A DNA stretch of 64,000 nucleotides from Paramacrobiotus metropolitanus (lineage: Eukaryota > Tardigrada > Eutardigrada > Parachela > Macrobiotidae). The notes beneath the pieces are model-generated. The model did not search any database. It was given only the letters and a program-made list of their open reading frames with translations, and was not told the DNA's origin. The translations under genes and the position numbers were made by a program. Shown here in pieces: positions 1 to 13,655 of the stretch (position 1 is the first letter of the stretch; the number at the start of each line of letters is the position of its first letter). The stretch is from positions 1,426,001 through 1,490,000 of the forward strand of contig NW_026570223.1 in the NCBI RefSeq assembly GCF_019649055.1. The letters are read 5' to 3'.

Positions 1-3
1 TGC

Positions 4-1560
4 ATGCAAGAAATGACACAAGATGACCTTTCGGAATGGCCGAAATGCAATGCAGCAATTGCACGTCATAATAGACAAGAAGAAAAAGAGGTCAAATCGA
101 TCATCAGAACACTTCCCATGCCGGAGCTGTCAAAAGCAACTTACCTTTGGCAATGTTATCGAGAATGGTTATCGGTAGTCAAGAACTACATCATCTCCAG
201 AGGAAAGTGGCTCCATCATTGGCAGCAAGAAGCGGATAACTTCATTCCCGAAAAGGCGGATAAAAGCGACCCGTGGTATACAAACCCGATTACAAAGCTC
301 GACAGAGAAAGGCGACGAGCAATGGAAGAGAACGAAATATGGGAGCAAGCGAGAGTTGACTTATTTTGGGAATTCAGAGTCAATTATCTATGGAAAGGTC
401 AAGGACGAGCAATCATTTTCCCAATCGGACTCGGCACAGTAGTGTACGAATTATTTGACCTTTACCAGGCCTGCCTCAAAAGGGAAATTTAAGAGAATGG
501 AACAAACAATGGGGCAAAATCCTCGAAGAAGTACCGATATATACAGGAGAAATCCCTGAATTAAAGGTCACGCGAAAAAGACGCGAACTCGGATTATTTG
601 GCTATCTGAGAAAAAAGGTGACCTTTGCACCAGATCCAGATGGAGTGGAGTATCCCGAAAGAGGCGGAGATACTTGGTGCATGTATGAGACGGTACCGAA
701 CAATGACTGGACTACAGAAGAACTGATGGCAAATTGCGTCTTTATCGGCGATAAGAGACCGAAAGGTCACAGCACAAGCGCTGAAAAAGAAAGCGGCACA
801 AGCGCCGAAGAAGAAAAGAACAAAGATAACGGCACAAGCGCCGAAGAAACCAAAGAAAGAGAACAAGAGGTCAGCACAAGTGCTGCTCAAGAAAACGGCA
901 CAGGCGCCGAAGAAGAGGAACCAACGCACACGGCGTATGAGTTGGCTCAGATGATCAAGGAACTGAACCAGGCGTTTCGGGATAAGGAAAACGGAATCCC
1001 GGTAACAGAGGCAAAAAGGCTCAAATGTCGCCGCAAGAGAAGAAAGCAGCGTCGTTAGTGGCTTCACTACAAAGGTCACTCGGTAACGGTGAGGAAGGGC
1101 CACCAACCGAGAAGAACGAAAGGTCACTAAACGCGATGCTGGAAGAGGAGCCAGAAAGGTCAGTTCCGAAAGTTGACGAAGGGTCACCTGAAACTGGCGA
1201 GGAAGGGCCGCCAGTTGGAAAAGCAAAAGGTCACAGAATACCGCTCAAGTAGATGATAGCTCGGAAGACGATGAAAGGGATAGGTCACGAGCAAGGATTC
1301 GTGCAACACGAACAAATCCGAGGATAGCAGCACGAAACGGACGAAAGTCCAAGGAAACGGACAAACCTCTGCCCGAAAAGCGAAAAGCGAAAAACTTAGC
1401 GCTTCCAAGGATGAAGGCGATGACCTTTCAACAGAAAGTGAAGACGAGGGCGTCGATGAACGACCAATCGGAAAAAGGAGTGAAGGTCAAGCGCTTGAGG
1501 TTAATAATAGCAGCGAATCCGACTCGGAATTCTCGAGCACAAGTGACAACTCGACCACTT
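4..1560 (+). other. retroelement region upstream of pol (broken)
   Basis: This stretch belongs to the retroelement, as shown by the same purine-rich composition and by at least 11 copies of the AAAGGTCA/TGACCTTT octamer. It holds open segments at 4-492, 618-1058 and 1025-1252 in more than one frame. The second contains about five repeats of a short Gly-Thr-Ser-Ala-Glu-Glu unit (770-920). I recognise no domain: the first segment is rich in Trp and charged residues and is probably helical. By position it could be the end of a gag-like or protease-linker part. It is treated as a fossil part and is not assigned a product. Confidence 0.5.
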
Positions 1561-1574
1561 CTGAAGATTCTGGA

Positions 1575-4500
1575 GTGAGTGACCTTTCGGATCAAGAAGA
1601 TCTGCTTGACCTCGACGAAGACGATGAAAAGAACGAACAACAAGAGAAAGAGATCATTGTTCGAAGAATTAAAGTGCAGAAAGCAAGAATCCCAGAAGGA
1701 GCGATCAAGGTTTACAGCGATCAACGAGTTAAGCTGAGACCAAACCTTGGCACTCGCGTGAAGGTCAAGATGGGCGTTCATGTGCCACGGAATCAGAAGC
1801 TGATGTATACAGCAACTCCTCAAAAGGATAATGAAGTCCAACCGAGAACGGGAGTCACGGACCATAACGGCACTCGATTCGAAATCATTATCGAAAACCG
1901 AAGCAAAAGCCGAAAGACCGTAAGGAAGGGCCAATTTCTCGGTTACGTAGAACATTACGAACACCTCGAGAATGTAAAGGTCAACTCGGCTACTGTCGTG
2001 AAAAACATCCTTGAAGATCCCGAAGTGGACGCAAAGACGAAAGAAGAACTGAACGACATAATTGAAAGATTAAAGTTAGGACCAGACCTAACTGAGGAAC
2101 AAAAGAATGACGTGCGAAACGCATTTTGGGAGTTTTGGAAAGTTCTCCCCACGTCAAAGAAACCGTATGGCGACGTCAAAGGGGTAACGCACACTATTGA
2201 CACAGCCGATGCCAAACCGGTTAAATGCAATCCAGCAAGAACAAGTTGGAAAGGTCGTGAATTCATCACAAAGCACATCGAAGAGATGCTACAGCAAGAT
2301 GTTATTGAACCATCCGATGCGGAATGGAGTTTTCCGGTCGTACTCGCCGCAAAGAAGAATGGCGACGGAACTATGGGAACAAGATTCTGCGTCAATTACA
2401 TTTTGCTGAACAAGCTGACGAAAAAGAACAACTATCCACTGCCGAACCCAGACGAACTGCTTGACGCATGCGCGGGAAACAAGTACTACGGCAAGATGGA
2501 CTTACAAAGTGGCTTCTGGCAGATCCCAATGGATCCAGCCTCGAAAGATAAGACAACTTTCGTCACGCAGGACGGAATGTTCCGTTTCAAAAGAATGCCT
2601 TTTGGAGTCTGCAATGGACCTGCGACCTTTCAACTTTGTATGGATAAAGTCTTGTCGAACGCAAAGAGAATGGGATGCGTTTTCGGCTATATCGATGACG
2701 TGATCTTCGCAGGGAAGACCTGGGAGATCTTCATGCAGAACTTAAGGAACGTCCTCCAAAGTTTAGTCGACGCAGGCTTCACAATTAAGCCGACGAAATG
2801 CGAATTTGGCATGCGCGAAATGGGATTCCTGGGGCATATCCTCAGCGAGAATGGTATTAAAATGGATCCCGAAAAGGTCATGGCAGTTAATGGCCAAAAG
2901 AAACCGACAACTGAACGGCAGTTAAGGTCATTCCTAGGATTAGCGAACTATTACCGAAAGTTCATCCTTGGATACGCGCAAAAGACGGCGCATCTCTACG
3001 AATTGCTAAGACACGATAAGAACATCAAAAGAGATTGGTCGGCAGTCCATGATCAAGAATTCAATGACCTTAAAGAAGCACTGTGCAAGGATCCAGTATT
3101 GAAGAAGTTCGATCCGACAAAGCCAACAGTGATCGAGTGTGACGCATCAAAGGAAGGGCTAGGTGCGATCTTGTCCCAAGATGGACATCCCATTGCATAC
3201 GCAAGCCGCGTTTTGCATGGAGCGGAAAAGAATTACGGAGTAACAGAATGGGAATGTCTGGCGGTAGTCTTCGCCGTCAGAAAGTTCAAGTCGTACATCG
3301 ACTACTCCGAATTCACAGTGAGAACGGATCACAAAGCTTTGACGAATCTCTTAAGATCGGAGTCGAACAAGTCATGCATGAATCCCCGATTGACAAGATG
3401 GGCATTGGCACTACAAGGTCACCGATTCAAGATAGAATACAAGCCGGGCAAATACTGCGACAATGCAGATGCCCTTTCAAGAGCGCCAATTGAAGGTCCC
3501 ACTTGCAACGAAGAAGAGTACGACGAAATCCCAAACTTCGAAGATTACAAGAACGAACTCAACAGAGAAGAACCTCCGATTGAAGTTTGGCAACTTTTCG
3601 TGCAACTAGCTGAAGAAAGGGAAGAAAGGCTGAAGGCCGACATGAGAAGGGTTGTGTCGGAAGAGAAAGAAAGCGGAGATATGCGCTCGAGCATAAACGA
3701 AGCAGAGCGTAGTCGTCGTCTTACTTTCGAACCCCGCTCTGCTACCAAGATAAAGGTCAACAGAGTGAGAAAAGAAACTTCCGAACGAAAAGATGGAAAG
3801 GTCACGAAAGATGGTCAGAAAATGGTAGACCAGAATGACCTTTGTGAAGCAGAAATCCTCTCGGAATACATCCCAGAAGAGTGTCCCATCAGACTGCTGA
3901 GATTCCCAAAGAAAATCGAGAAAGGTCACAAGCCTCTTCCGAGATGCAAGGTCATCAAAAATTGGAATGAACTCAGCACTGCAGTAGTCCGCATCGTCAA
4001 CCTCCAAGGAGACGAAGAAGAAGAAGATGATACGAATTTGCAGTTGCGGAATAAGCAGCTAAAAGATCCGCACTTGGCAATGATCATCGATGAATTGGAG
4101 CACCTGCAAGACGCAGACAAAAGGTCAAAGTTTGAGACGCATTACCAGTTATGGAACGGCATACTGTATCGCGTCAAAGACCAGAAAGGAAGACTGGAAA
4201 GGACATATGTGGTACCGCTGCAAATGAGAAGGGCAATCATCCATGCACTGCATGATGAAAAAGCAGCAGGTCACCTTGGTTTTGAAAAGACGCTGACCGC
4301 GATCCGGCTCAGGTATTACTGGGACCGTATGAGTACGGATGTCAAGAATTACATCCTCGCGTGTCAAGGATGTCAGTTCATAAAGACACCAAGGAAGTGT
4401 CCGCCTGGAAAGCTCCAAGAGATCAAAGTCGGACATCCATTCTTCAGAGTCTATGCGGATCTGAAAGGACCTTTACTCCCAACAAAGAAAAGGGGATATA

Positions 4501-6089
4501 AATACATCGCGGTCTTTATCGACCAGCTGACGAAGTACGTCATAGCGGAGCCAATGAAAACAGCCACCGCAAAAGAATTCGCAAAGGTTTTCGTGAAACA
4601 CGTAATCTTGGTGCACGGAGCGCCCCATATCCTCCACACGGATCGCGGAAGACACTTCACCGCAGAAGTACTGAAAAAGGTCACCAACGTGTTTAAAATC
4701 AAACACACGTTTGGAACAGCGTACCATCCTGAGGGCCAAGGACAGGTTGAAAGACAGATGCAGACCATCAGCGATGGACTGTCGCAATACCTGAAAGCGG
4801 GAAACGAAAGGAAGTTTAACAAATATCTTCCCTACGTCATATCGGCAATGAACCGTGCAGTACATGCAACGACGGGGTACTCAGCGTACTACATGCTTCA
4901 CGGGAGAGAAATGACCATGCCAGAAGACGTAGTGACGAAGACGAACGTTCCTGACGACTACGGTGCACCAGACGAATGGGTCGAAACCATGAAAAGGAAC
5001 TTGACCTTTTCAGAAGAAGTGGCGAAGTGCAACATCAAAGATGCTTACGAAAAGCACGCGGAAATCTACAACAAGAAGAAGTCAGAGCCGCAATTCAAAG
5101 TCGGAGATCGAGTCTTAATTAGACTCCCGAAAGATACAAAGCAAGGAAAGAAGGAAAATCAAACTGACTTCAAAAACAAATACGACAAAGTGTGGAAGAT
5201 TCTCAGCTTTCCGAGACCGAACGAAGTCGAGGTCATCGAGCAAGATGCGGTGAAAGAGCCGGACTTACGGGTCGTTTCGGTAGATCGTCTGAAATCGTGG
5301 CACCCGCCGTTACCGGTCCAGAAAGGTCAAGCTGAAAGGGCAGCTTCGGAATCACCTGAGAAAGGTCATGAAATTGCAGAGCATGGCTCTCATGCTTTCG
5401 AACCACGCTCGCGTAACGACATAGCAGAGCGTAGTTGTCAGCATACTTCCGAACCACGCTCTGTACCAGCTATGGCAGAAGAGCCGAAAGAGGCAGAAGA
5501 GCCGAAAGAGGCGGAAGAGCCAAAAGAGGCGGAAGAGCCAGGAACGAAAAAGAGAGGAAGAAAGAAGAAAGAGAATAAAGATTTCGAAACACCAGTGACA
5601 ATGAAGCTGAATCAAGAGGCAGGAGACCTCGAAGCAGAGCATGGATCTCAAGTGGCGCCTAAGTCAAAGCTTACTCTCGAACCACGCTCTCAAGTAGCAG
5701 AGCATGATTCCAAAGATGCTTTCGAACCACGCTCTGCCACCAACGGCAAGAATGACCATTCAAGAGCGGAACAGATAAAAGCCGTCAAAGAACAAGCCGA
5801 CCAACTTGGCCAACGGATCGCGAACGAAATTGAGAAGCGAAAGGTCAAGAAAATGAAGAAAACTCCGAAGCCGACTCCAGAACAGATTCTGAGAGGAGAA
5901 GTCCAAGACGAAGATGAAGCCGACAAAGCATTACTTGATCGGATAACTAAAGGACGAAAACAAATAAACCCGAAAATCAGGCTTATAGGAGTTTATGATA
6001 TTAAGACTGGAAGTTGGGACGGCGTAAAGGTCATCAGAAATAAACCTGCTAATCGGAGTCATTTTCGTTGTCGTAGTAGGTTTGTTTAA
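1575..6089 (+). CDS. retroelement pol: reverse transcriptase, RNase H, integrase
   Basis: One open frame of 1504 codons. In order: an acidic lead-in (residues 1-60); a beta-rich linker of the sort that precedes gypsy RTs (about 60-170); RT (about 190-430) with the YIDD active-site box; RNase H (about 515-610) beginning at the CDASKEGLGA box; a long charged linker; the integrase zinc-binding region (about 885-945); and the integrase catalytic core (about 960-1120), including the HTDRG box. After integrase comes a basic GDRVLIRLP-type segment, then a tail of roughly 300 residues with four AEEPKE-type repeats (5478-5543) and several AE-x-S...FEPRS repeats matching a DNA foldback cassette. I see no recognisable protease domain in this frame. 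The frame looks whole. Family assignment is secure; the function of the tail is unknown. Confidence 0.92.
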   Translation: MSDLSDQEDLLDLDEDDEKNEQQEKEIIVRRIKVQKARIPEGAIKVYSDQRVKLRPNLGTRVKVKMGVHVPRNQKLMYTATPQKDNEVQPRTGVTDHNGTRFEIIIENRSKSRKTVRKGQFLGYVEHYEHLENVKVNSATVVKNILEDPEVDAKTKEELNDIIERLKLGPDLTEEQKNDVRNAFWEFWKVLPTSKKPYGDVKGVTHTIDTADAKPVKCNPARTSWKGREFITKHIEEMLQQDVIEPSDAEWSFPVVLAAKKNGDGTMGTRFCVNYILLNKLTKKNNYPLPNPDELLDACAGNKYYGKMDLQSGFWQIPMDPASKDKTTFVTQDGMFRFKRMPFGVCNGPATFQLCMDKVLSNAKRMGCVFGYIDDVIFAGKTWEIFMQNLRNVLQSLVDAGFTIKPTKCEFGMREMGFLGHILSENGIKMDPEKVMAVNGQKKPTTERQLRSFLGLANYYRKFILGYAQKTAHLYELLRHDKNIKRDWSAVHDQEFNDLKEALCKDPVLKKFDPTKPTVIECDASKEGLGAILSQDGHPIAYASRVLHGAEKNYGVTEWECLAVVFAVRKFKSYIDYSEFTVRTDHKALTNLLRSESNKSCMNPRLTRWALALQGHRFKIEYKPGKYCDNADALSRAPIEGPTCNEEEYDEIPNFEDYKNELNREEPPIEVWQLFVQLAEEREERLKADMRRVVSEEKESGDMRSSINEAERSRRLTFEPRSATKIKVNRVRKETSERKDGKVTKDGQKMVDQNDLCEAEILSEYIPEECPIRLLRFPKKIEKGHKPLPRCKVIKNWNELSTAVVRIVNLQGDEEEEDDTNLQLRNKQLKDPHLAMIIDELEHLQDADKRSKFETHYQLWNGILYRVKDQKGRLERTYVVPLQMRRAIIHALHDEKAAGHLGFEKTLTAIRLRYYWDRMSTDVKNYILACQGCQFIKTPRKCPPGKLQEIKVGHPFFRVYADLKGPLLPTKKRGYKYIAVFIDQLTKYVIAEPMKTATAKEFAKVFVKHVILVHGAPHILHTDRGRHFTAEVLKKVTNVFKIKHTFGTAYHPEGQGQVERQMQTISDGLSQYLKAGNERKFNKYLPYVISAMNRAVHATTGYSAYYMLHGREMTMPEDVVTKTNVPDDYGAPDEWVETMKRNLTFSEEVAKCNIKDAYEKHAEIYNKKKSEPQFKVGDRVLIRLPKDTKQGKKENQTDFKNKYDKVWKILSFPRPNEVEVIEQDAVKEPDLRVVSVDRLKSWHPPLPVQKGQAERAASESPEKGHEIAEHGSHAFEPRSRNDIAERSCQHTSEPRSVPAMAEEPKEAEEPKEAEEPKEAEEPGTKKRGRKKKENKDFETPVTMKLNQEAGDLEAEHGSQVAPKSKLTLEPRSQVAEHDSKDAFEPRSATNGKNDHSRAEQIKAVKEQADQLGQRIANEIEKRKVKKMKKTPKPTPEQILRGEVQDEDEADKALLDRITKGRKQINPKIRLIGVYDIKTGSWDGVKVIRNKPANRSHFRCRSRFV

Positions 6090-6103
6090 CGATAAGCTGA
6101 AAA

Positions 6104-8182
6104 ATGGAAGGTCAAGGCGGCAGAAGTTATTGGAATCCGGGAACGCCGTCATCGACGAGCGGAACGATTCAGGACCCGGACTTATATGACGATTCAATGA
6201 ATACGGAGGGAACATACGAAGGGGGATACGACCTGTCTACTACGTATCAACAACCCGACGTGGGAATGAGCTCGAACACATGGGGGACTTACGGCACGCA
6301 GGTCGGGCCCCAAGGGCAAATGATGCCGAATCAGATGATGCCAAACCAGATGATGCCAAATCAAATGATGCCAAATCAGATGATGCCGAACCAAGGAATG
6401 ATGGGACAGAATTTCCCATTCCAGCAATTCCCACAGATGTACGGCCAAAATATGCCCATGATGAACCAGGGTCAACCGATGCAAGGTCAGTTCGGATATG
6501 GAGGAATGGCCCCATTTCCGAACCAGATGCAGGGATTCCCAAATCAGATGCAGGGATTCAACCCTCAGCAAAGTCAAGGGCAATTTCGAACACCGAAACC
6601 GTCAAGAGGTCAACGTTACCCGGGAGACAGACAAAACACACCGCGAAGGGGCGGTCAGTCGTCTATTCCGAGAGCGTCGACGAGTGGCCAGGGAACGAGA
6701 ATGGAGATCCCATCACTTACACCAGTCCGAATCCACTCGCCAAGATCGACTGGAAGTATCCCGTGGGCAGTGTTAAATGCACCCAGATTCAACGACCCGA
6801 TCACAGAAACGGATCCGCAGTACAACATTGTAATGGATCCAAAGGTCACCCTCACAGAGGAAGAAAAGAAGGCTGTGGCAGAGTTTAATGAAAAATGCCG
6901 CGAGTTCGTCCAGCTGCATAACGATATCAACGATAATCAAGATCAGTACAGGACAGCTCGAAGAACTCACAAGATAACCAGGGGAACCCACCTCCACATG
7001 AAACTGGATAAACATGAGGCGGAAGAGTTGAGAAAAGAAAGGGGTGTTGAAATCAGAACACTGAAGAACAGTAATCCAGTGTTGCGCAACAGGGAATGGC
7101 CAAGCGCAGTAAAGACGATACTGATCTTCATGAACCTCATTCCCCCGGAACCAAAAGAAGAAGAACAGGAGAGAGGAGTCAAAACTCCGGCCGAGGAAAG
7201 CCCCACTAAGGAAGAGCATACGGCCAAGCGAACGAGGAATGACCCGTTTCAGCCACCGAGTGACCCGTTGGTAACTCGAGAAAGAGAACTGTTGAGAGAA
7301 AGGGATAAACTCGACAGAGAAATTATGGAATTGAGGTCTCGTACGACATCGGCAGTACAATCAGGATCATCGCGTGACAGCCCGGCGAGAGAAACTAAAC
7401 CGAAACTGAAATATGAAAAAGATTTTCTCCCGGTGGAGGAAGGTCACACCAGTCAAGAAGAAAAACCGAAAGGTCATCCTGGCGCGAGCACGCGAAGGGG
7501 CGCAGCTCGAGAAACAAAATGTAGATCGCACACCAGAGTTTTCCGGCTTAAAGATAAAACGGAAGGAGTAGTCAGCGCATTCCTAGTCCATAGAGACACT
7601 GATCAACCAATTCCATCAATGGGGGAAGGAGCTGACCGAGCCGCATATCAGCTGATGTGCAAAGAAGCCAGCGATACAGCAGAGCAAGCGATTGTTGAAC
7701 TCATTAAGTCAGAACGCAATAACCCGACCATGATAGGAAGAATCCTGAGAGACCTGTTGAGAGAAACAGCATTCAAAGAGAAGGCGAATATCATGGTCAC
7801 AATTGACGCGAAGGGTAGAATGGAGAAACAACTCTATAACCCGCAAGGCGAAAAGATTGATATGCTCTCGCATGGAGCATATCCGGCGTCAGGTGCGAAG
7901 GGGCACGAGGCGGAAGAAGAAGGAGAATGGGAAGAAGATGTAGAAGATGAAGAAAACCCGCCATACAGAGAGACGGTGTGCAGAAGTCTAAAGGTCAACT
8001 ATCACATGGCGGACGGAGATGAGGGATACGTCCACGGCTTTATCATCGACCCGACGACCTATATGCCGATCCCGACAGCAGTTGGATACCCAAAAGATCC
8101 ACCGATCGACAACAGCACTGACATCGTTGAAGGCAGCACACGAAAAAGCGACGCAAGGTCATGCTGCGGAAGAAACAGCTAA
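6104..8182 (+). CDS. retroelement downstream frame 1, Met/Pro/Gln-rich, unknown
   Basis: A 692-codon frame starting 15 bases after the pol stop. Residues 1-180 are rich in Gly, Gln, Met, Pro and Asn, with five tandem QMMPN repeats (6325-6400), typical of a disordered, possibly condensate-forming segment. The middle (about 180-430) is charged and helical with a coiled-coil-like RERELLRERDKLDREIMEL stretch near residue 400. The C-terminal third is acidic. I recognise no catalytic or envelope domain: there is no signal peptide and no membrane segment. By composition it could act as a nucleoprotein or gag-like protein encoded after pol, but that is inference. Its 3' end overlaps the next frame by about 160 bases in a different frame. 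Confidence 0.65.
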   Translation: MEGQGGRSYWNPGTPSSTSGTIQDPDLYDDSMNTEGTYEGGYDLSTTYQQPDVGMSSNTWGTYGTQVGPQGQMMPNQMMPNQMMPNQMMPNQMMPNQGMMGQNFPFQQFPQMYGQNMPMMNQGQPMQGQFGYGGMAPFPNQMQGFPNQMQGFNPQQSQGQFRTPKPSRGQRYPGDRQNTPRRGGQSSIPRASTSGQGTRMEIPSLTPVRIHSPRSTGSIPWAVLNAPRFNDPITETDPQYNIVMDPKVTLTEEEKKAVAEFNEKCREFVQLHNDINDNQDQYRTARRTHKITRGTHLHMKLDKHEAEELRKERGVEIRTLKNSNPVLRNREWPSAVKTILIFMNLIPPEPKEEEQERGVKTPAEESPTKEEHTAKRTRNDPFQPPSDPLVTRERELLRERDKLDREIMELRSRTTSAVQSGSSRDSPARETKPKLKYEKDFLPVEEGHTSQEEKPKGHPGASTRRGAARETKCRSHTRVFRLKDKTEGVVSAFLVHRDTDQPIPSMGEGADRAAYQLMCKEASDTAEQAIVELIKSERNNPTMIGRILRDLLRETAFKEKANIMVTIDAKGRMEKQLYNPQGEKIDMLSHGAYPASGAKGHEAEEEGEWEEDVEDEENPPYRETVCRSLKVNYHMADGDEGYVHGFIIDPTTYMPIPTAVGYPKDPPIDNSTDIVEGSTRKSDARSCCGRNS

Positions 8183-8825
8183 AGGTCATCAGACTTCAGC
8201 GCAAAGTGGAGTCGAGGAGAAAGGTCATCCGAGCTCAAGTCATGGAAAGATGGGGCAGCCTACTGGATCGCAACTGCCGGTACAGGCTACACAGCAAGTG
8301 CAGTCTCCATCGCAGAAAGAGGAGACGGACGACGAGCTAAACGAGAGTAACGTCCAGTGGATGACAATTTACGCTGCGATCGGTGCAGCCCCGTCGAGAG
8401 AAATGGATAAGACGGATATTTCAAAAGCAGTCGGCGACGCCGGAGTCAGCAGGACACAAGTCAACAAGCTCATAAAAAGAGCGTATAAAGAAGGAAAAAT
8501 CGGTGTACGATACACGAACACGAATCAACCGAACTATTACATTCCTCCGGCGGAAGAACAACGAAAGCAGAGACCGAAACCAGGTCCCCAGGCTTGGAAG
8601 GACGCTTTGACTCAAGATGCCATGCAGAACATAGGCGGGACTAACGGGTTCACCGCAGAAGACCTCTCCAATTACATGGCAGTTCAGTATGATTCCGGCC
8701 AAGAAAATATGAACGGGGATCGATTCAAGATCCAGAACGCGTTGGACAGTTTGGTCAAAGACGGAACCATCAGAACATGGAAGAAGGATGGAGTCGACCA
8801 ATACGACTGGATCGCGAAAGCGTAA
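8019..8825 (+). CDS. retroelement downstream frame 2, probable tandem winged-helix protein
   Basis: A 268-codon frame. After a low-complexity N-terminal part (about 1-105) come two segments that each read like a small winged helix. One is at about residues 110-170: a helix, then DISKAVGDAGVSRTQVNKLI as a helix-turn-helix, then a basic KIGVRY wing ending in NYYI. The other is at about 190-265: TAEDLSNYMA, a recognition-type helix ending in LDSLVKDG, and a WKKDGVDQYDW wing. Winged helices normally bind DNA or RNA, so this may be a nucleic-acid-binding accessory protein. The assignment rests on sequence pattern only; a structure prediction of this frame as it stands would test it. A winged-helix protein is unusual cargo for a Ty3/gypsy element. 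Confidence 0.55.
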   Translation: MRDTSTALSSTRRPICRSRQQLDTQKIHRSTTALTSLKAAHEKATQGHAAEETAKGHQTSAQSGVEEKGHPSSSHGKMGQPTGSQLPVQATQQVQSPSQKEETDDELNESNVQWMTIYAAIGAAPSREMDKTDISKAVGDAGVSRTQVNKLIKRAYKEGKIGVRYTNTNQPNYYIPPAEEQRKQRPKPGPQAWKDALTQDAMQNIGGTNGFTAEDLSNYMAVQYDSGQENMNGDRFKIQNALDSLVKDGTIRTWKKDGVDQYDWIAKA

Positions 8826-9014
8826 AACGGAAGAACATGTGTGGGAGGAAGGTCCACCACACAAAAAGAAGAATCAGAATCAGGAAAGAGAAAGAAATGA
8901 GCAGACCGCAGTTCTCAAATTACTTTCGAACCACACTCTGCAAAAAGAGTTGATTTAGCGAAGGGGCTAAAGTACTTAGCGAATGGGCTAAGATGGGAAA
9001 GGTCACCTATACGG

Positions 9015-11312
9015 TTGAGAATGGTACAGGAAAAGCGCGAGGCAGAGCGAAAGCGGCTAGAAGAAAAGGAGAAAGCTGCGGCAGAGAAGGGTTTAGCCGA
9101 AGCAGCTAAAGGTCACGCACCTACCCCATTCGCGATATTGAAGAAACAAGATGAAGGAGAAGCAGCTGTAATCAGACAGTCGCTGATACAGCAGATTGAC
9201 ATCATCTTGCAAGATCCTCTCGCGGTATCGAAAGAGGAATACAAAATCTTCCTGGATGAAAAGGTCAACCTGACGAAAGGAAATAGACCGTCCCAGGTTA
9301 TCAAAATTGCGATTGAAGAACGAATCGACAGGATGAGAAATTTCCGAAAACGGGAGAAAGATGTGGTTGAGGCCCTTCGGAACTTCAAGAAAGAGGAGTT
9401 CAAACGCCCAAAATCGCCTCAAAGAGATGATCGCAACCGCGGCTATGAAAGGTCATCAGACCGCTCCCGAGAAAGGTCATGGGACAGACATCATAACGAC
9501 CGATACAGTGGATACGCGAGAGATACGCGCACGTCGGAGCAAAAGAGAAGGGATGAAGAACGTATCCGACGTGAAAAAGAACAAAGAGAAAAGCGCCGCC
9601 AAGAAGAAGCGGAAGAAAAGCGCTTGGCGGAGGAATACAGGAAAATCAACGAAACCTGTAATAGGCAGCAGGAGAAGGAACGGGCTGCTAAGGAAACGCA
9701 AAATCGCGATTTACAGAATCGAGAAGGAAGAAGTGAAGGCTCGAGTAAATCAACATCCTCAAAGGGGCCATATGATCAAGAGTGGGTCCAGGATAACCTG
9801 AACATGGCTGATTATGAGTTTGGAGACAAATCCTACAACAGCAAAAGGTCATCCAGCTCGGAAAGCCACCGCACGCCTAAGAGCCCGCGCAGAATGCAGT
9901 CAGTAGTCCATTCTGTTTGTTCAACGTTCAAGTCAGCCGAGAAGCAACCGGAAAAGCAATTAGACGAGGTCATGGAATGCAGCCCGTCATCCTCGAATGT
10001 CATTGAAGTTCACGGAGACGAGGATATGCGACCGTCAAGACGAAACATTATCTTCGATCTTGAACATCAGCTTACAAGCGCGGAGACGGCGAGTAATGTA
10101 CCGCCAGAATCAGATTCAGAGAAGGGCGACCAGAAAGGTCAATCAAAGGTCACCGCTCCGAGGAGACATTCTCTCCAAACCATCGAGCTGGTATATGAAA
10201 TGAACGACATCATGGAGCAAACGAACGAGATCTGCCGTTCGGTGGGCATCGCGCCAGATAATAAGGACGAATTCGACAAAGTTTATTGGCTTCTCATGAA
10301 CTTGCGCCAGGTCATCAACGACTCGGGATACGCGAAAGAGTACGAGTATGGCCAATGGGAAGACCTGATCATTACGCAAGAATCGGCGAATCTTCATTAT
10401 TTCCCAACGAGAGAATGTGGCCTCGTCAGTCTGATCGACCTGAGTCTCTTGGAAACACCGTTGGACACTCCTGATCCAACAGGAATGACGCAGTTCCAAT
10501 ACAGAGACATCAAGGAAAGACGACTCCACGTAGCACAATTTGTGTTGCGACATGTGAACCCGGCGTTGAGACTCCTCGCAGGAAGGGCTGCGTTAGGATT
10601 GTTGGTCAAACCAGATTCTCCGCCTGATCATCGCGCCACGATTCAGAAGATTTTTGCAGCAAGGCTCGGCCATTATGAATCGCATCACCAGCTGCGAAAG
10701 AGCGCTCAAAGAGGTATAGAGATACCGCCAGCACTGACCGCGCAAGTTATAAAGCTGGGAATGCCTGTTAAGAACTTTAACTCCTCGGAAACGGCCAAGA
10801 GGCAGCTGAAGGACGTCCAGAGAGCAATGAATTTCGACGAAAGTCTGAGACGTCAAGCGAAAATGCATGCCCACCGATGTGCGGAAAGAATCAGAATCAC
10901 GATGGGTACGAGATTCATCCAGCCATCCGACTTCGTCTATGATTTCATCCAAGAAATCAGCGTAAATAGAAGCAGCTACCGTCCAGAGCTTGCGAGACAG
11001 CCGCAGGAAAATGAAATGAAACGAAGAGGACGAAGAAACCAACAGCTGCATTTGGACTATGTCGAATTGTGCAAAAGGTCACGGGATAATCCATACGATG
11101 AAGGATTAAAAGCGCGAATGGTCGACGCTCGAGATCATCTGATCCGTATTCAGCGCAGACGTGACCGAAATCGGCACAGTGGTGCTAGCAGCCGGAGCGA
11201 AGGAGACGAGCTGCCTGAGAGGCAAAAGGAACCTCGGGATCGAACGTCTGATCAGAACGAAAAACAAAGACGTTTCGATCGGAACCGCGACAATGGTTCA
11301 AATGATCAGTGA
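9015..11312 (+). CDS. retroelement downstream frame 3, charged N-terminus with helical C-terminal domain
   Basis: A 765-codon frame. Residues about 1-240 are dominated by Arg, Lys and Glu and include an RS/RD-type basic region, likely disordered or coiled-coil and able to bind nucleic acid. Residues about 390-730 are a compositionally normal, mostly alpha-helical region starting near SLQTIELVYEMNDIM and ending in a basic Arg-rich tail. I do not recognise it. A helical region followed by a basic tail is the layout of capsid-nucleocapsid proteins, so a gag-like role is conceivable, but the position after pol would be unusual and no zinc knuckle is seen. There is no signal peptide or transmembrane segment, so it is not an obvious envelope. 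Confidence 0.6.
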   Translation: MRMVQEKREAERKRLEEKEKAAAEKGLAEAAKGHAPTPFAILKKQDEGEAAVIRQSLIQQIDIILQDPLAVSKEEYKIFLDEKVNLTKGNRPSQVIKIAIEERIDRMRNFRKREKDVVEALRNFKKEEFKRPKSPQRDDRNRGYERSSDRSRERSWDRHHNDRYSGYARDTRTSEQKRRDEERIRREKEQREKRRQEEAEEKRLAEEYRKINETCNRQQEKERAAKETQNRDLQNREGRSEGSSKSTSSKGPYDQEWVQDNLNMADYEFGDKSYNSKRSSSSESHRTPKSPRRMQSVVHSVCSTFKSAEKQPEKQLDEVMECSPSSSNVIEVHGDEDMRPSRRNIIFDLEHQLTSAETASNVPPESDSEKGDQKGQSKVTAPRRHSLQTIELVYEMNDIMEQTNEICRSVGIAPDNKDEFDKVYWLLMNLRQVINDSGYAKEYEYGQWEDLIITQESANLHYFPTRECGLVSLIDLSLLETPLDTPDPTGMTQFQYRDIKERRLHVAQFVLRHVNPALRLLAGRAALGLLVKPDSPPDHRATIQKIFAARLGHYESHHQLRKSAQRGIEIPPALTAQVIKLGMPVKNFNSSETAKRQLKDVQRAMNFDESLRRQAKMHAHRCAERIRITMGTRFIQPSDFVYDFIQEISVNRSSYRPELARQPQENEMKRRGRRNQQLHLDYVELCKRSRDNPYDEGLKARMVDARDHLIRIQRRRDRNRHSGASSRSEGDELPERQKEPRDRTSDQNEKQRRFDRNRDNGSNDQ

Positions 11313-12450
11313 TGACCTTTAGGGCATCGCTGATGTGCTAGTTACGGCCATCAGTCGGCAGCACGAGAATGGTAGTCAAGGTACAGTATTAGGGCGAAGG
11401 AGACGCAACTTTTTGAACTGTCATACCGTTCGTGTTTTGTTGTTTTCAGAATTTTGTTGCAGGGGATCAAGGCGATCTGCAGTATGGGGGAGTTACGGAG
11501 GTCATCCGGCCCTCGAAGCAGGAAGAGTAACGGCGTTAACCGGCCTTCCTCATTACATTTAAACGTCACTTCTAGAGTGTAGTTGCGGCCTACTTAGTCG
11601 GCACACTCTTAAGGAATGTCAGAAGCCACAAGGGTGAAAAAGAGAAAGAGTTCAAGAAAATAGGGGTAAAACTTTCAGATGTTGAGGTTACGGCGATAAC
11701 CGGCCTCAGAAGAAGAGGAGTTACGGCGTTAACCGGCCCTCGAACCTGGTAAGGAAAGAAGAAAGGTGCGCGTCATTGGCACTAAGAGAAAAGAAAGGGA
11801 AGTGCGACGAAAGAAAATGGTTGAAAACGAATGATGACCTTTGCTAGGGAGGCAAGCAGAATTGCTTGAAAGCCAAAAACCGGCTAAGTTCCTCCATGAC
11901 CTTTAATACGGAACTCATTATGGAAAAATGGATGACCTTTTGGGATCGTCACGGCCCAAACGAGTCGCACATCAGAAGAGAAAGGGATGACCTTTGAGAA
12001 CTTCACTGCTCAACGAGTCATCAATCAAAGTTCAAAAGAATGACCTTACCAGGGAGGAAGCATTACGCTTGTCTTTCAAGACGTCCCTCCATGTCCAAGA
12101 GGAAGAATCTCATTTTGCAGAAGTCGTACTTGATACGCAATTATTCCAAAGATGAAGCAGCAGTATTGAAAAGTCGTACTTGATACGCACCTATTCCTAA
12201 AGCGGATCTCATTTGTGATGGTAAAGATTGCTCAAAAGAGCGGAATGGACCAAAGCGGATTACGGTTGACAGGACCCAGTGACCTTTAGGAGTCGGAGGA
12301 TCCTAGTCGTTTTGATAATGAATTCTGTTGATATTTTTTTACTGTTTTTACTTTTGTTTCGAGATCTCTTTATTCACACATGTAATTGGAATTTGTGATG
12401 TTAAAAGGAGATTAAATCTCGATGTTTTATTAATCACACAGACGAGCCGT
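11313..12450 (+). other. retroelement 3' noncoding region with repeated RNA-like hairpin modules
   Basis: No long frame is open here. The region is made of short modules: six hairpins sharing a TTACGG...CCGGC-type core (11335-11741), two three-way-junction-like folds (11846-11896 and 12051-12091), two hairpins with 10-base loops followed by CGAGTC (11939-11960 and 11994-12013), a direct repeat AGTCGTACTTGATACGCA (12121-12138 and 12172-12189), and a terminal stem (about 12386-12440). Most modules after 11,800 are preceded by ATGACCTT(T). The hairpins keep pairing while their stem bases differ, so selection on RNA (or single-stranded DNA) structure is likely. This could be the untranslated end and LTR of the element. 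Confidence 0.6.
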
Positions 12451-12816
12451 CAAGGATCCCAAGGAATTGGATGTGGATTTGCTTCGACGGAGCTCAGCCT
12501 CCCTCCCAGAGGCATGTGAGCGCAGGCGTACATGCGTACACCCTCGCTTTGGCAGTCTGTTGTGTATTCATTGCGCGCCCGCCTTACGCGTGGCGAAAGC
12601 ATGGTGTTCTGCGCGCACCCGCACTGTGTGGCGGCTACGTGCGCATTTTCCTCGCTTGCTGCAGTCAGCAATGCGGAGTTGTCCACGAGGAAATTCTATC
12701 GAATTTAGTCTGGTTATAAATTTCTAGCAATCACGCCGTTTCTCGCTTTCTGTAGCGTAGGCGTATTTATAGCATTGCTAGTCTTTTTGGTAGGCAGAAT
12801 TCCGTCAATTCTGTTC
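12451..12816. other. gene-free stretch between retroelement and BTB gene
   Basis: The segment 12,450-12,700 is noticeably richer in GC and CpG than the host background (runs such as GCGCGCCCGCC near 12,570) and may still belong to the retroelement end or be an old regulatory segment. I see no supported gene. The 3' end of the minus-strand BTB gene follows at 12,817. Confidence 0.4.
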
Positions 12817-13655
12817 CTACGCGTGAACCTTCATCAGGTCCACGCTCATATTATGTTCCTCGGCCGACAGTGTATTACGCAATAGAATCATCTCGAGCAT
12901 CTCCTTTCCAACGGCCGCAAAATCTCCCAACGCGATGACATCGTCCGCGGATCGGTCGATGAACTGCAGACAACTCTCTGCAATCTTTTCAGCACGACGT
13001 TCAACGCCCTACAACCGATATACAACCGTATAAATATTAGGCTAGAATGATCGTACAGATATAACAGGGATAGGACTAATTTAAGCAATTACAGAAGTTT
13101 GACCAACATTTTTCAGGAAAATCAGACAGTTCTCCGTATTCAGCTGGGTGCTAACGAATTCACAGCACTTGTCCACTAGCAGCGGCACTTCGTACTTGTC
13201 CGCGCACAGCAGTGTCTGGATGACGACGTCCACACGCAGATCGACCGTGTCAGTGTACAGGAAACTGCAGTCGAGTAAATACAGTCAGGATGTACTTCTG
13301 CGTAATCATAATATGTTGATAACCAACGTTACGATAATCTCTAACCTGAGCATATTGGCAAACGCATCGGGAAGAACATCCGGAATGTCGATCACCTGGC
13401 GTTTCTCAGGCAGACTGCCATAGAACATGGTATAGAACACGGGGCTACGTTGACACAGTACGTGCCTGCAAAGCAACAGTGAATTCCCGTCAGTGCTTAC
13501 TTGTGCACATCGAAGGCCTTCACTGGCCCGAAACATCGTCCGACTGTGAACTGCACGTCACTGAACTCTCCACTGTCCAGAGTACGCTTCATGCTGCCGA
13601 CAAGCCCCAGTCCGGATCGCTGACGCCGTGTGGAACTTGAGGGATTTGCCGACAT
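12817..13655 (-). CDS. short BTB-BACK protein, BTBD2/3/6-like
   Basis: Four exons on the minus strand (13655-13501, 13465-13346, 13264-13108, 13008-12817) give 207 residues in phase. The start Met precedes a Ser/Arg-rich leader; then comes a BTB/POZ domain (about 20-130) with the hallmark DVQFTVG, FDVHKHVLCQRSPVFYTMF and LYTDTVDL segments, followed by the start of a BACK domain (CLQFIDRSADDVIALGDF). Such proteins dimerise through BTB and often act as Cullin-3 substrate adaptors. Compared with BTBD2/3/6 proteins of about 500 residues, it lacks the rest of BACK and the C-terminal PHR domain. It either ends early at 12,817 or continues through a possible AAG|GTTCAC donor into DNA now occupied by the retroelement. 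The exon 3 donor (GTTGGT) is weak. The BTB call is secure; the gene end is not. Confidence 0.75.

Follow-up and report, generated by a model that had tools for sequence, protein, structure and literature searches.

Why does a single eight-base word, AAAGGTCA on the forward strand and TGACCTTT on the reverse, recur dozens of times across one mobile element in the genome of the tardigrade Paramacrobiotus metropolitanus? The stretch of DNA analysed here (the window) is the 64,000 bp segment C3:1,426,001-1,490,000 of the 169.8 Mb assembly of this host. Window positions 1-12,851 are the downstream part of a Ty3/Gypsy retroelement that starts approximately 9 kb upstream of the window, within the directly adjoining 10 kb (L004). 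We conclude that the octamer is a real, selected and dispersed nucleotide signal in this young giant retroelement, and that it may be read as double-stranded DNA by a nuclear receptor of the host.

A preliminary description of the window had reported about 45 exact copies in 12.3 kb, where fewer than one would be expected by chance, and both figures were confirmed: window 1-12290 contains 45, with about 0.67 expected. The strand split had been given as 34 forward and 11 reverse; the count is 32 and 13, placed as follows.

394..11081, forward strand: 32 copies of AAAGGTCA, starting at 394, 563, 762, 1071, 1119, 1155, 1226, 1976, 2873, 3752, 3797, 3921, 4120, 4676, 5322, 5361, 5840, 6026, 6841, 7469, 7990, 8181, 8220, 8998, 9108, 9260, 9448, 9472, 9844, 10134, 10145 and 11074
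24..12287, reverse strand: 13 copies of TGACCTTT, starting at 24, 456, 619, 1421, 1580, 3836, 5002, 11313, 11835, 11897, 11933, 11988 and 12280

The upstream part of the element (L004:2212-9968) adds 31 forward and 14 reverse octamers, bringing the whole window copy to 90 (63 forward, 27 reverse), none of them in the long terminal repeats (LTRs). The array had been described as confined to a retroelement at window 1-12290. Confinement to the element holds, as the density falls to background outside it (9 octamers in 50,946 window bases and 5 in 10,000 upstream bases), but the element extends beyond the upstream edge of the window, and its octamers extend with it. When an order-2 Markov model of the element is taken as background, no 8-mer is more overrepresented by likelihood ratio than AAAGGTCA, which occurs 63 times where 2.4 are expected; TGACCTTT is found 27 times in the window copy against 0.2 expected.

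The counts also exceed shuffled nulls of both kinds that had been proposed as a check. In 500 dinucleotide-preserving shuffles of window 1-12290, the means were 0.58 forward and 0.08 reverse copies and the maxima 4 and 2. Synonymous codons were then shuffled 1000 times in each of five open reading frames (ORFs). The excess is clear in the two longest: the pol ORF 1575-6089 has 11 forward octamers against a mean of 0.96 (maximum 4) and 3 reverse against 0.09 (maximum 2), and ORF 9015-11312 has 8 forward against 0.51 (maximum 4). It is weaker in the other three, where the observed count only equals the shuffle maximum. These are ORF 6104-8182 (3 forward, mean 0.29), ORF 8019-8825 (2 forward, mean 0.29) and ORF 1-492 (1 forward and 2 reverse, means 0.15 and 0.18).

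When the genome was scanned for three octamers at gaps of 10-40 bases, 776 forward and 774 reverse clusters were returned, against none on either strand for the reversed control pattern. Among the cluster matches listed, most are by eye leader-like or coding-array sequence of this element family, and a few are not. At C1:203504-203754 and C1:4082588-4082717, octamers occur mostly every 17-24 bases, possibly in another part of the element or in another subfamily.

An own-genome protein search gave at least 53 matches, including at least 31 places with long matches, and 20 loci of the octamer-bearing family were fetched. Counted over matched stretches with 1.5 kb flanks rather than whole elements, these 20 loci contain 591 octamers in 144,495 bases, and 10 loci of a sister Gypsy family of P0002 type in the same genome (L047-L056) contain none in 52,686 bases. 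The sister family has a 41% identical polymerase, the same domains and a similar A-over-T bias (skew 0.26-0.30), but it is a separate lineage and octamer-free in the loci sampled. It may have a different word of its own, for which the evidence is weak: CCGACC occurs 17-20 times per 5.3 kb locus in L048, L053 and L056, mostly on the sense strand and in all three frames (4.6 and 5.6 expected in L048 and L053), and only five times in L047.

The pol stretches of the 20 loci were codon-aligned, and octamers on both strands proved to be conserved. The octamer is kept in 17-20 of the 20 copies at columns 401, 1298, 2195, 2240 and 3119 (forward) and at columns 5 and 3445 (reverse). The two reverse sites, at window 1580 and 5002, are kept in 17/20 and 18/20 copies, and the three copies that lack the first have gaps there. 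Other pol octamers are specific to subfamilies, columns 2364, 2563, 3801 and 3849 to A and B (A includes the window copy) and columns 2075, 2641 and 4246 to C, which indicates that sites are also gained and lost. Between the window copy and 11 C-type copies, whose pol DNA is 71-73% identical, 7-9 of 11-14 octamers are intact, where phase-matched 8-mers predict 0.9-1.3; for two B copies, 11/14 and 11/12 are intact (3.9 and 3.3 expected).

Comparison of related copies at synonymous sites, also proposed beforehand, gave conservation of the octamers above that of third positions elsewhere. At codons whose amino acid is unchanged, the four C copies tested have 21-24 of 25-28 third positions identical inside octamers (84-88%), against 452-488 of 980-1036 outside (45-47%; Fisher p<1e-4). 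For one B copy, the corresponding figures are 32/33 and 792/1196.

The same holds where no long frame exists. Downstream of pol, five C-type copies (L001, L015, L017, L021 and L025) have 1.5-1.8 kb with 15-26 forward octamers and a longest open frame of 120-177 amino acids (aa). Of the 20 ordered pairs of these copies, 16 show a lower substitution rate inside octamers than outside (p<0.01). From L017 to L001, for example, there is 1 substitution in 160 octamer positions and 249 in 1243 others, and 19 of 20 octamers are intact against 28% of other 8-mers. Gene conversion of whole tracts was considered as the cause and rejected, because the flanks of shared octamers have diverged. In a stop-ridden copy, L011, octamer loss is too small to be informative. 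Two stretches, L021:5941-7161 and L017:5866-6742, look like non-autonomous derivatives, with decayed post-pol frames and forward octamers every 40-55 bases on average.

That the octamers merely reflect repeats in proteins, biased codon use or local duplication, the word itself having no role, is thus highly improbable. Some stretches are indeed tandem, such as the leader of the C9 copy, and a few of the listed clusters outside the element (C1:566902, C1:2087584 and C1:3373910) look by eye like tandem repeats of Lys-Gly-His type. However, all three reading frames are used, as first reported, and so are both strands; codon shuffles fail to reproduce the counts in the two longest frames; and sampled sister loci with a similar purine bias have no octamers. 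Conservation at synonymous sites and in stretches with no long open frame contradicts a by-product, and the earlier statement that protein selection cannot explain the octamers is therefore supported. The octamer is selected as nucleotides, independently of coding.

The word is also nearly all-or-none. For this comparison, one copy per subfamily was pooled (A, the window copy; B, C169; C, C9), with B and C partly fetched and their pieces handled apart. The pool holds 267 exact octamers against 6.7 expected, approximately 40-fold for AAAGGTCA. Of the 24 one-mismatch variants, 23 lie at 0.14-2.9 times expectation, and T at position 1 is the only one clearly enriched (20 against 2.0, 9.9-fold). 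Near-copies, which had been put forward as a general feature, are thus not one: the two named, GAAGGTCA and CAAGGTCA, reach 2.1-fold and 2.9-fold. The ninth base is mostly C or T, and G in only 3 of the 267. Around shared octamers in the post-pol alignment, each flanking position changes at 4-36%, and no clear wider footprint is seen. The word is exact, is used on both strands and in all frames, and persists where no long frame is open; together, these features argue that the nucleotide word itself is recognised.

The orientation of the sites along the element, whose parts are listed below, bears on whether the word is recognised in RNA or in DNA.

L004:950-1283: 5' LTR
L004, after the leader: two frames at the place expected for gag, with no Pfam gag match
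1..492, forward strand: 3' end of the protease-bearing frame, which begins at L004:6731; protease domain PF13975, 1.6e-9
1284..6089, forward strand: pol open frame, Ty3/Gypsy
2361..2843, forward strand: reverse transcriptase domain RVT_1, PF00078, 1.3e-26
3111..3416, forward strand: RNase H domain, PF17917, 1.9e-33
4212..4730, forward strand: integrase zinc-binding and core domains, PF17921, 7.4e-19, and PF00665, 1.9e-11
6101..8182, forward strand: post-pol open frame, no Pfam match at E<=0.1
7992..8825, forward strand: open frame with two winged-helix-like domains (approximately 8328-8540 and 8586-8810), Linker_histone 24.2 bits against a cut-off of 22.4
8901..11312, forward strand: long Arg/Glu-rich open frame, no Pfam match at E<=0.1
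11313..12287, reverse strand: 3' untranslated trailer, in which 6/6 octamers are reverse
12516..12851, forward strand: 3' LTR, sharing 98.8% identity with its 5' counterpart (L004:950-1283), with no octamers

In the window copy, forward and reverse octamers number 0 and 7 in the leader, 63 and 14 in the coding part, 0 and 6 in the trailer and 0 and 0 in the LTRs. In the C9 copy, with 500 bases between L026 and L017 outside the count, the figures are 0 and 17 in the leader, 63 and 14 in the interior, 0 and 6 in the trailer and 0 and 0 in the LTR. The forward excess in the coding part can be attributed to the A-rich sense strand (2.35 forward against 0.13 reverse expected). Leader and trailer together are wholly reverse (0/13 in the window copy, 0/23 in C9) and the interior mostly forward, so the two sets of octamers are complementary in the transcript. 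This would suit a role in RNA, in which UGACCUUU of the leader and trailer pairs with AAAGGUCA of the interior, or an RNA-binding protein reads the octamer, for compaction, export or packaging of the 21 kb transcript. The same transcript also contains other likely hairpins, a distinct set whose stems vary.

We nevertheless consider a role in RNA unlikely, although the orientation pattern gives it some weight. With strands pooled, the variants that would preserve G-U pairing are low (A1>G 2.1-fold, A2>G 0.96, A3>G 0.3, C7>T 1.3, A8>G 1.6), while T at position 1, which does not pair, stands at 9.9-fold. No covarying stem of the kind expected for a packaging stem-loop surrounds the octamer: over 16 stem offsets at 63 forward and 27 reverse sites there was no consistent excess, only a few single positions with z of 2.0-2.5. 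In 7 of 8 sets, octamers are predicted to be unpaired less often than their anagrams. In the C9 leader, moreover, 13 of the 17 octamers lie inside a tandem array of approximately 29-31 bp units, so that their common orientation is not independent. The earlier idea of an RNA packaging or structure signal thus found no support from hairpin, variant or accessibility tests. Low G-U variants, high T at position 1 and the lack of stem context or gain in accessibility make a DNA-binding protein the likelier reader. Hairpins of the form GACC-NAAA-GGTC were also tried and rejected, GACC being present within 12 bases upstream at only 10 of the 63 sites.

The separate set mentioned above lies at L004:6915-7657 (C3:1422915-1423657) and consists of ten AAAGTAA words between complementary, varied arms (for example GTCACG/CGTGAC, CCGCAG/CTGCGG and GTCAAG/CTTGAC). 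Stem position 1 is a constant G-C, and positions 2-6 pair in 8, 10, 9, 7 and 6 of 10, against 5.3, 3.2, 3.8, 4.7 and 2.8 when flanks were shuffled. From this pattern, the words are likely RNA hairpins with a 7-base loop. The B copy has seven AAAGTAA words, six of them with stems of at least 4, and C-type stretches have a GCAG/CTGC stem with the loop AATGGTA.

As a DNA site, the octamer has a close counterpart. According to PMC10419244, the NGFI-B response element (NBRE) is 5'-AAAGGTCA-3', bound by a NURR1 monomer. PMC6912296 assigns this word to the Nr4a family as well, with DHR38 as the fly member and NHR-6 as the worm member. The octamer is identical to the NBRE of NR4A receptors (NGFI-B/Nur77, Nurr1, DHR38, NHR-6) in 8/8 letters. 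The host genome has 63 zf-C4 stretches, of which 17 were fetched, and one of these loci (L045) encodes an NR4A-type second zinc finger (that finger only) whose best match among solved structures is NGFI-B (1cit, 3.1e-21); the NR4A gene of the host is placed on C45 near 297,500. By eye, L032 and L035 look ERR-like and L030 FTZ-F1-like. The preliminary description had recognised a nuclear-receptor half-site and assigned it to the FTZ-F1/ERR/HNF4 group; the match to a half-site stands, but the exact word is that of NR4A, and CAAGGTCA, which we take to be the ERR/FTZ-F1-like form, is enriched 2.9-fold against approximately 40-fold. At position 1, N or C is favoured by ERR and FTZ-F1, and at position 2, T is favoured by ROR/Rev-erb; these preferences fit the octamer less well than that of NR4A. 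Monomeric nuclear receptors make a minor-groove contact adjoining AGGTCA, and A or T at the 5' end of the octamer would fit such a contact.

We therefore favour, with a probability of roughly 0.4, a distributed array of double-stranded DNA sites whose reader is most likely a monomeric nuclear receptor of the host, above all of NR4A/HR38 type. Several observations weigh against it. Leader and trailer are uniformly reverse, which a site that works in either orientation does not require and the A-rich strand does not explain. The LTRs, the usual place of a promoter, have no octamers in both copies examined. No helical phasing of octamer spacings was found, nor was any Nur response element (NurRE, TGACCTTT-n6-AAAGGTCA) among the 13 opposite neighbour pairs at most 70 bases apart in seven pieces; the closest, one of the 13, is the everted pair TGACCTTT-n7-AAAGGTCA, with a spacer of 7. 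Nuclear receptors often tolerate more variation than the octamer shows, and other receptors of the host (ERR-like, FTZ-F1-like) could also bind related words. As to selection, the amino-acid-identical subset is small, with 3-7 octamers per comparison, and the 20 post-pol pairs were drawn from five copies and are not independent. Four of these pairs were not significant: L025 to L021, L001 to L021, and L025 and L001, which are 99.5% alike, in both orders.

The reader could instead be encoded by the element. The octamer would then be the recognition word of a winged-helix, gag or other protein of its own, marking its own nucleic acid for packaging or synapsis or steering insertions away from old copies. 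The frame at 7992-8825, which has a counterpart at L029:1840-3921, matches a linker-histone/winged-helix domain just above the Pfam cut-off and is 65% identical in the B copy. A predicted model of its protein, at low confidence (mean predicted local distance difference test score, pLDDT, 51.8), suggests two helix-helix-helix-strand-strand units. That the octamer-free sister family is a separate lineage, and that the word appears to be kept more exactly than expected for a host factor, also favour this explanation. However, in the C9 copy, whose two LTRs are 100% identical and whose fetched DNA contains 100 octamers, no frame of at least 150 aa lies between the 177-aa frame that follows pol and the 3' LTR, and the fetched DNA gave no tblastn match to the winged-helix protein at 1e-4. 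Other C-type copies carry a 24-28% identical relative of the 6101-8182 frame, so C9 could be served in trans. In a protein search, the winged-helix protein had no relatives at E<=0.001, leaving it with no known specificity, and a search of solved structures gave no match at E<=1. Overall, a reader encoded by the element seems rather unlikely.

If the reader is the host receptor, the octamer would be a selected double-stranded recognition site across the whole internal part of the element, most likely for the NR4A/HR38 type, and with approximately 90-100 sites in each copy, the integrated element as a whole, beyond its LTR, would become a receptor platform. Such sites could promote transcription, or they could counteract silencing by keeping the 21 kb body open. 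By eye, the element's proteins seem to carry octamers in low-complexity stretches, of Lys-Gly-His, Lys-Val-Thr or Arg-Ser according to frame. Such a reader would be expected to prefer A over T at position 1, refuse other variants and disfavour G at position 9. More tentatively, the whole body, coding frames included, may serve as a dispersed DNA address of approximately 90-100 near-exact sites for one host receptor, selected across subfamilies, on both strands and in frame-decayed derivatives. A factor reading the interior might activate the element, shield it from silencing or gather its copies in the nucleus, and the proteins may have evolved to accommodate the word in three frames.

The control sequences of an LTR retroelement are normally looked for in its LTR or leader, and NBREs are familiar from promoters and enhancers. 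Here, approximately 90-100 copies of a word that matches the NBRE in sequence are spread through the body of a single retroelement, coding frames included. A short word is selected throughout approximately 20 kb, including inside coding frames, and the selection can be measured at synonymous sites, in a frame-free stretch and against a sister-family control. In the open literature, searches on the word with retrotransposons, tardigrade Gypsy elements, the NBRE with retroelements and tardigrade NR4A found no description of such an array among the papers listed, most subscription papers lying outside that scope, and a term search of PMC11071193 gave no mention of Paramacrobiotus. The Drosophila gypsy insulator, with approximately 12 Su(Hw) sites in the 5' leader, is likewise a serial array of a short word in a Ty3/Gypsy leader (here 7 in the window copy and 17 in C9). 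The Su(Hw) word differs, however, and here sites also fill the coding frames and trailer; the likeness is one of layout. Dispersed genome signals such as bacterial DNA-uptake sequences, Chi sites and nematode periodic An/Tn clusters (PATC) are similarly short, near-exact words on both strands and inside coding stretches, but they mark cellular genomes, and the octamer marks one eukaryotic retroelement family. The element offers a natural system for the use of a host receptor site by a retroelement, for dense intragenic sites on chromatin and for proteins evolving around a DNA signal. NR4A receptors are a stress- and moult-linked group, and if one of them is the reader, mobilisation in a stress-tolerant animal becomes directly testable.

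The Ty3/Gypsy copy itself spans approximately 21.9 kb, with LTRs of approximately 335 bases each that are 98.8% identical over 336 columns and end, by eye, in TGAGCG...CGCTCA. Protease, reverse transcriptase, RNase H and integrase follow in that order, as in Ty3/Gypsy elements, and the closest named relatives of the polymerase are P. metropolitanus proteins. An Rfam scan of the window gave no matches. By eye, no short (4-6 bp) target-site duplication was seen at the ends of the element; this weakens nothing beyond the claim that the element inserted here in the standard way. The two flanks share a 207 bp segment (L004:745-951 and window 12848-13054, 99.5% identical), as though insertion had duplicated a very long target, and another segment, of 231 bp, is duplicated at L004:1-231 and window 13204-13434. 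A dispersed repeat of approximately 42 bases with a CGAACCACGCTCTG-like end, encoding FEPRSA-like peptides, occurs at window 3700, 5422, 5650, 5695 and 8899 and at L004:9684. At window 11511-11741 and 12121-12200, the trailer has repeats, namely GTTACGGCGTTAACCGGCC-like units and two occurrences of AAGTCGTACTTGATACGC.

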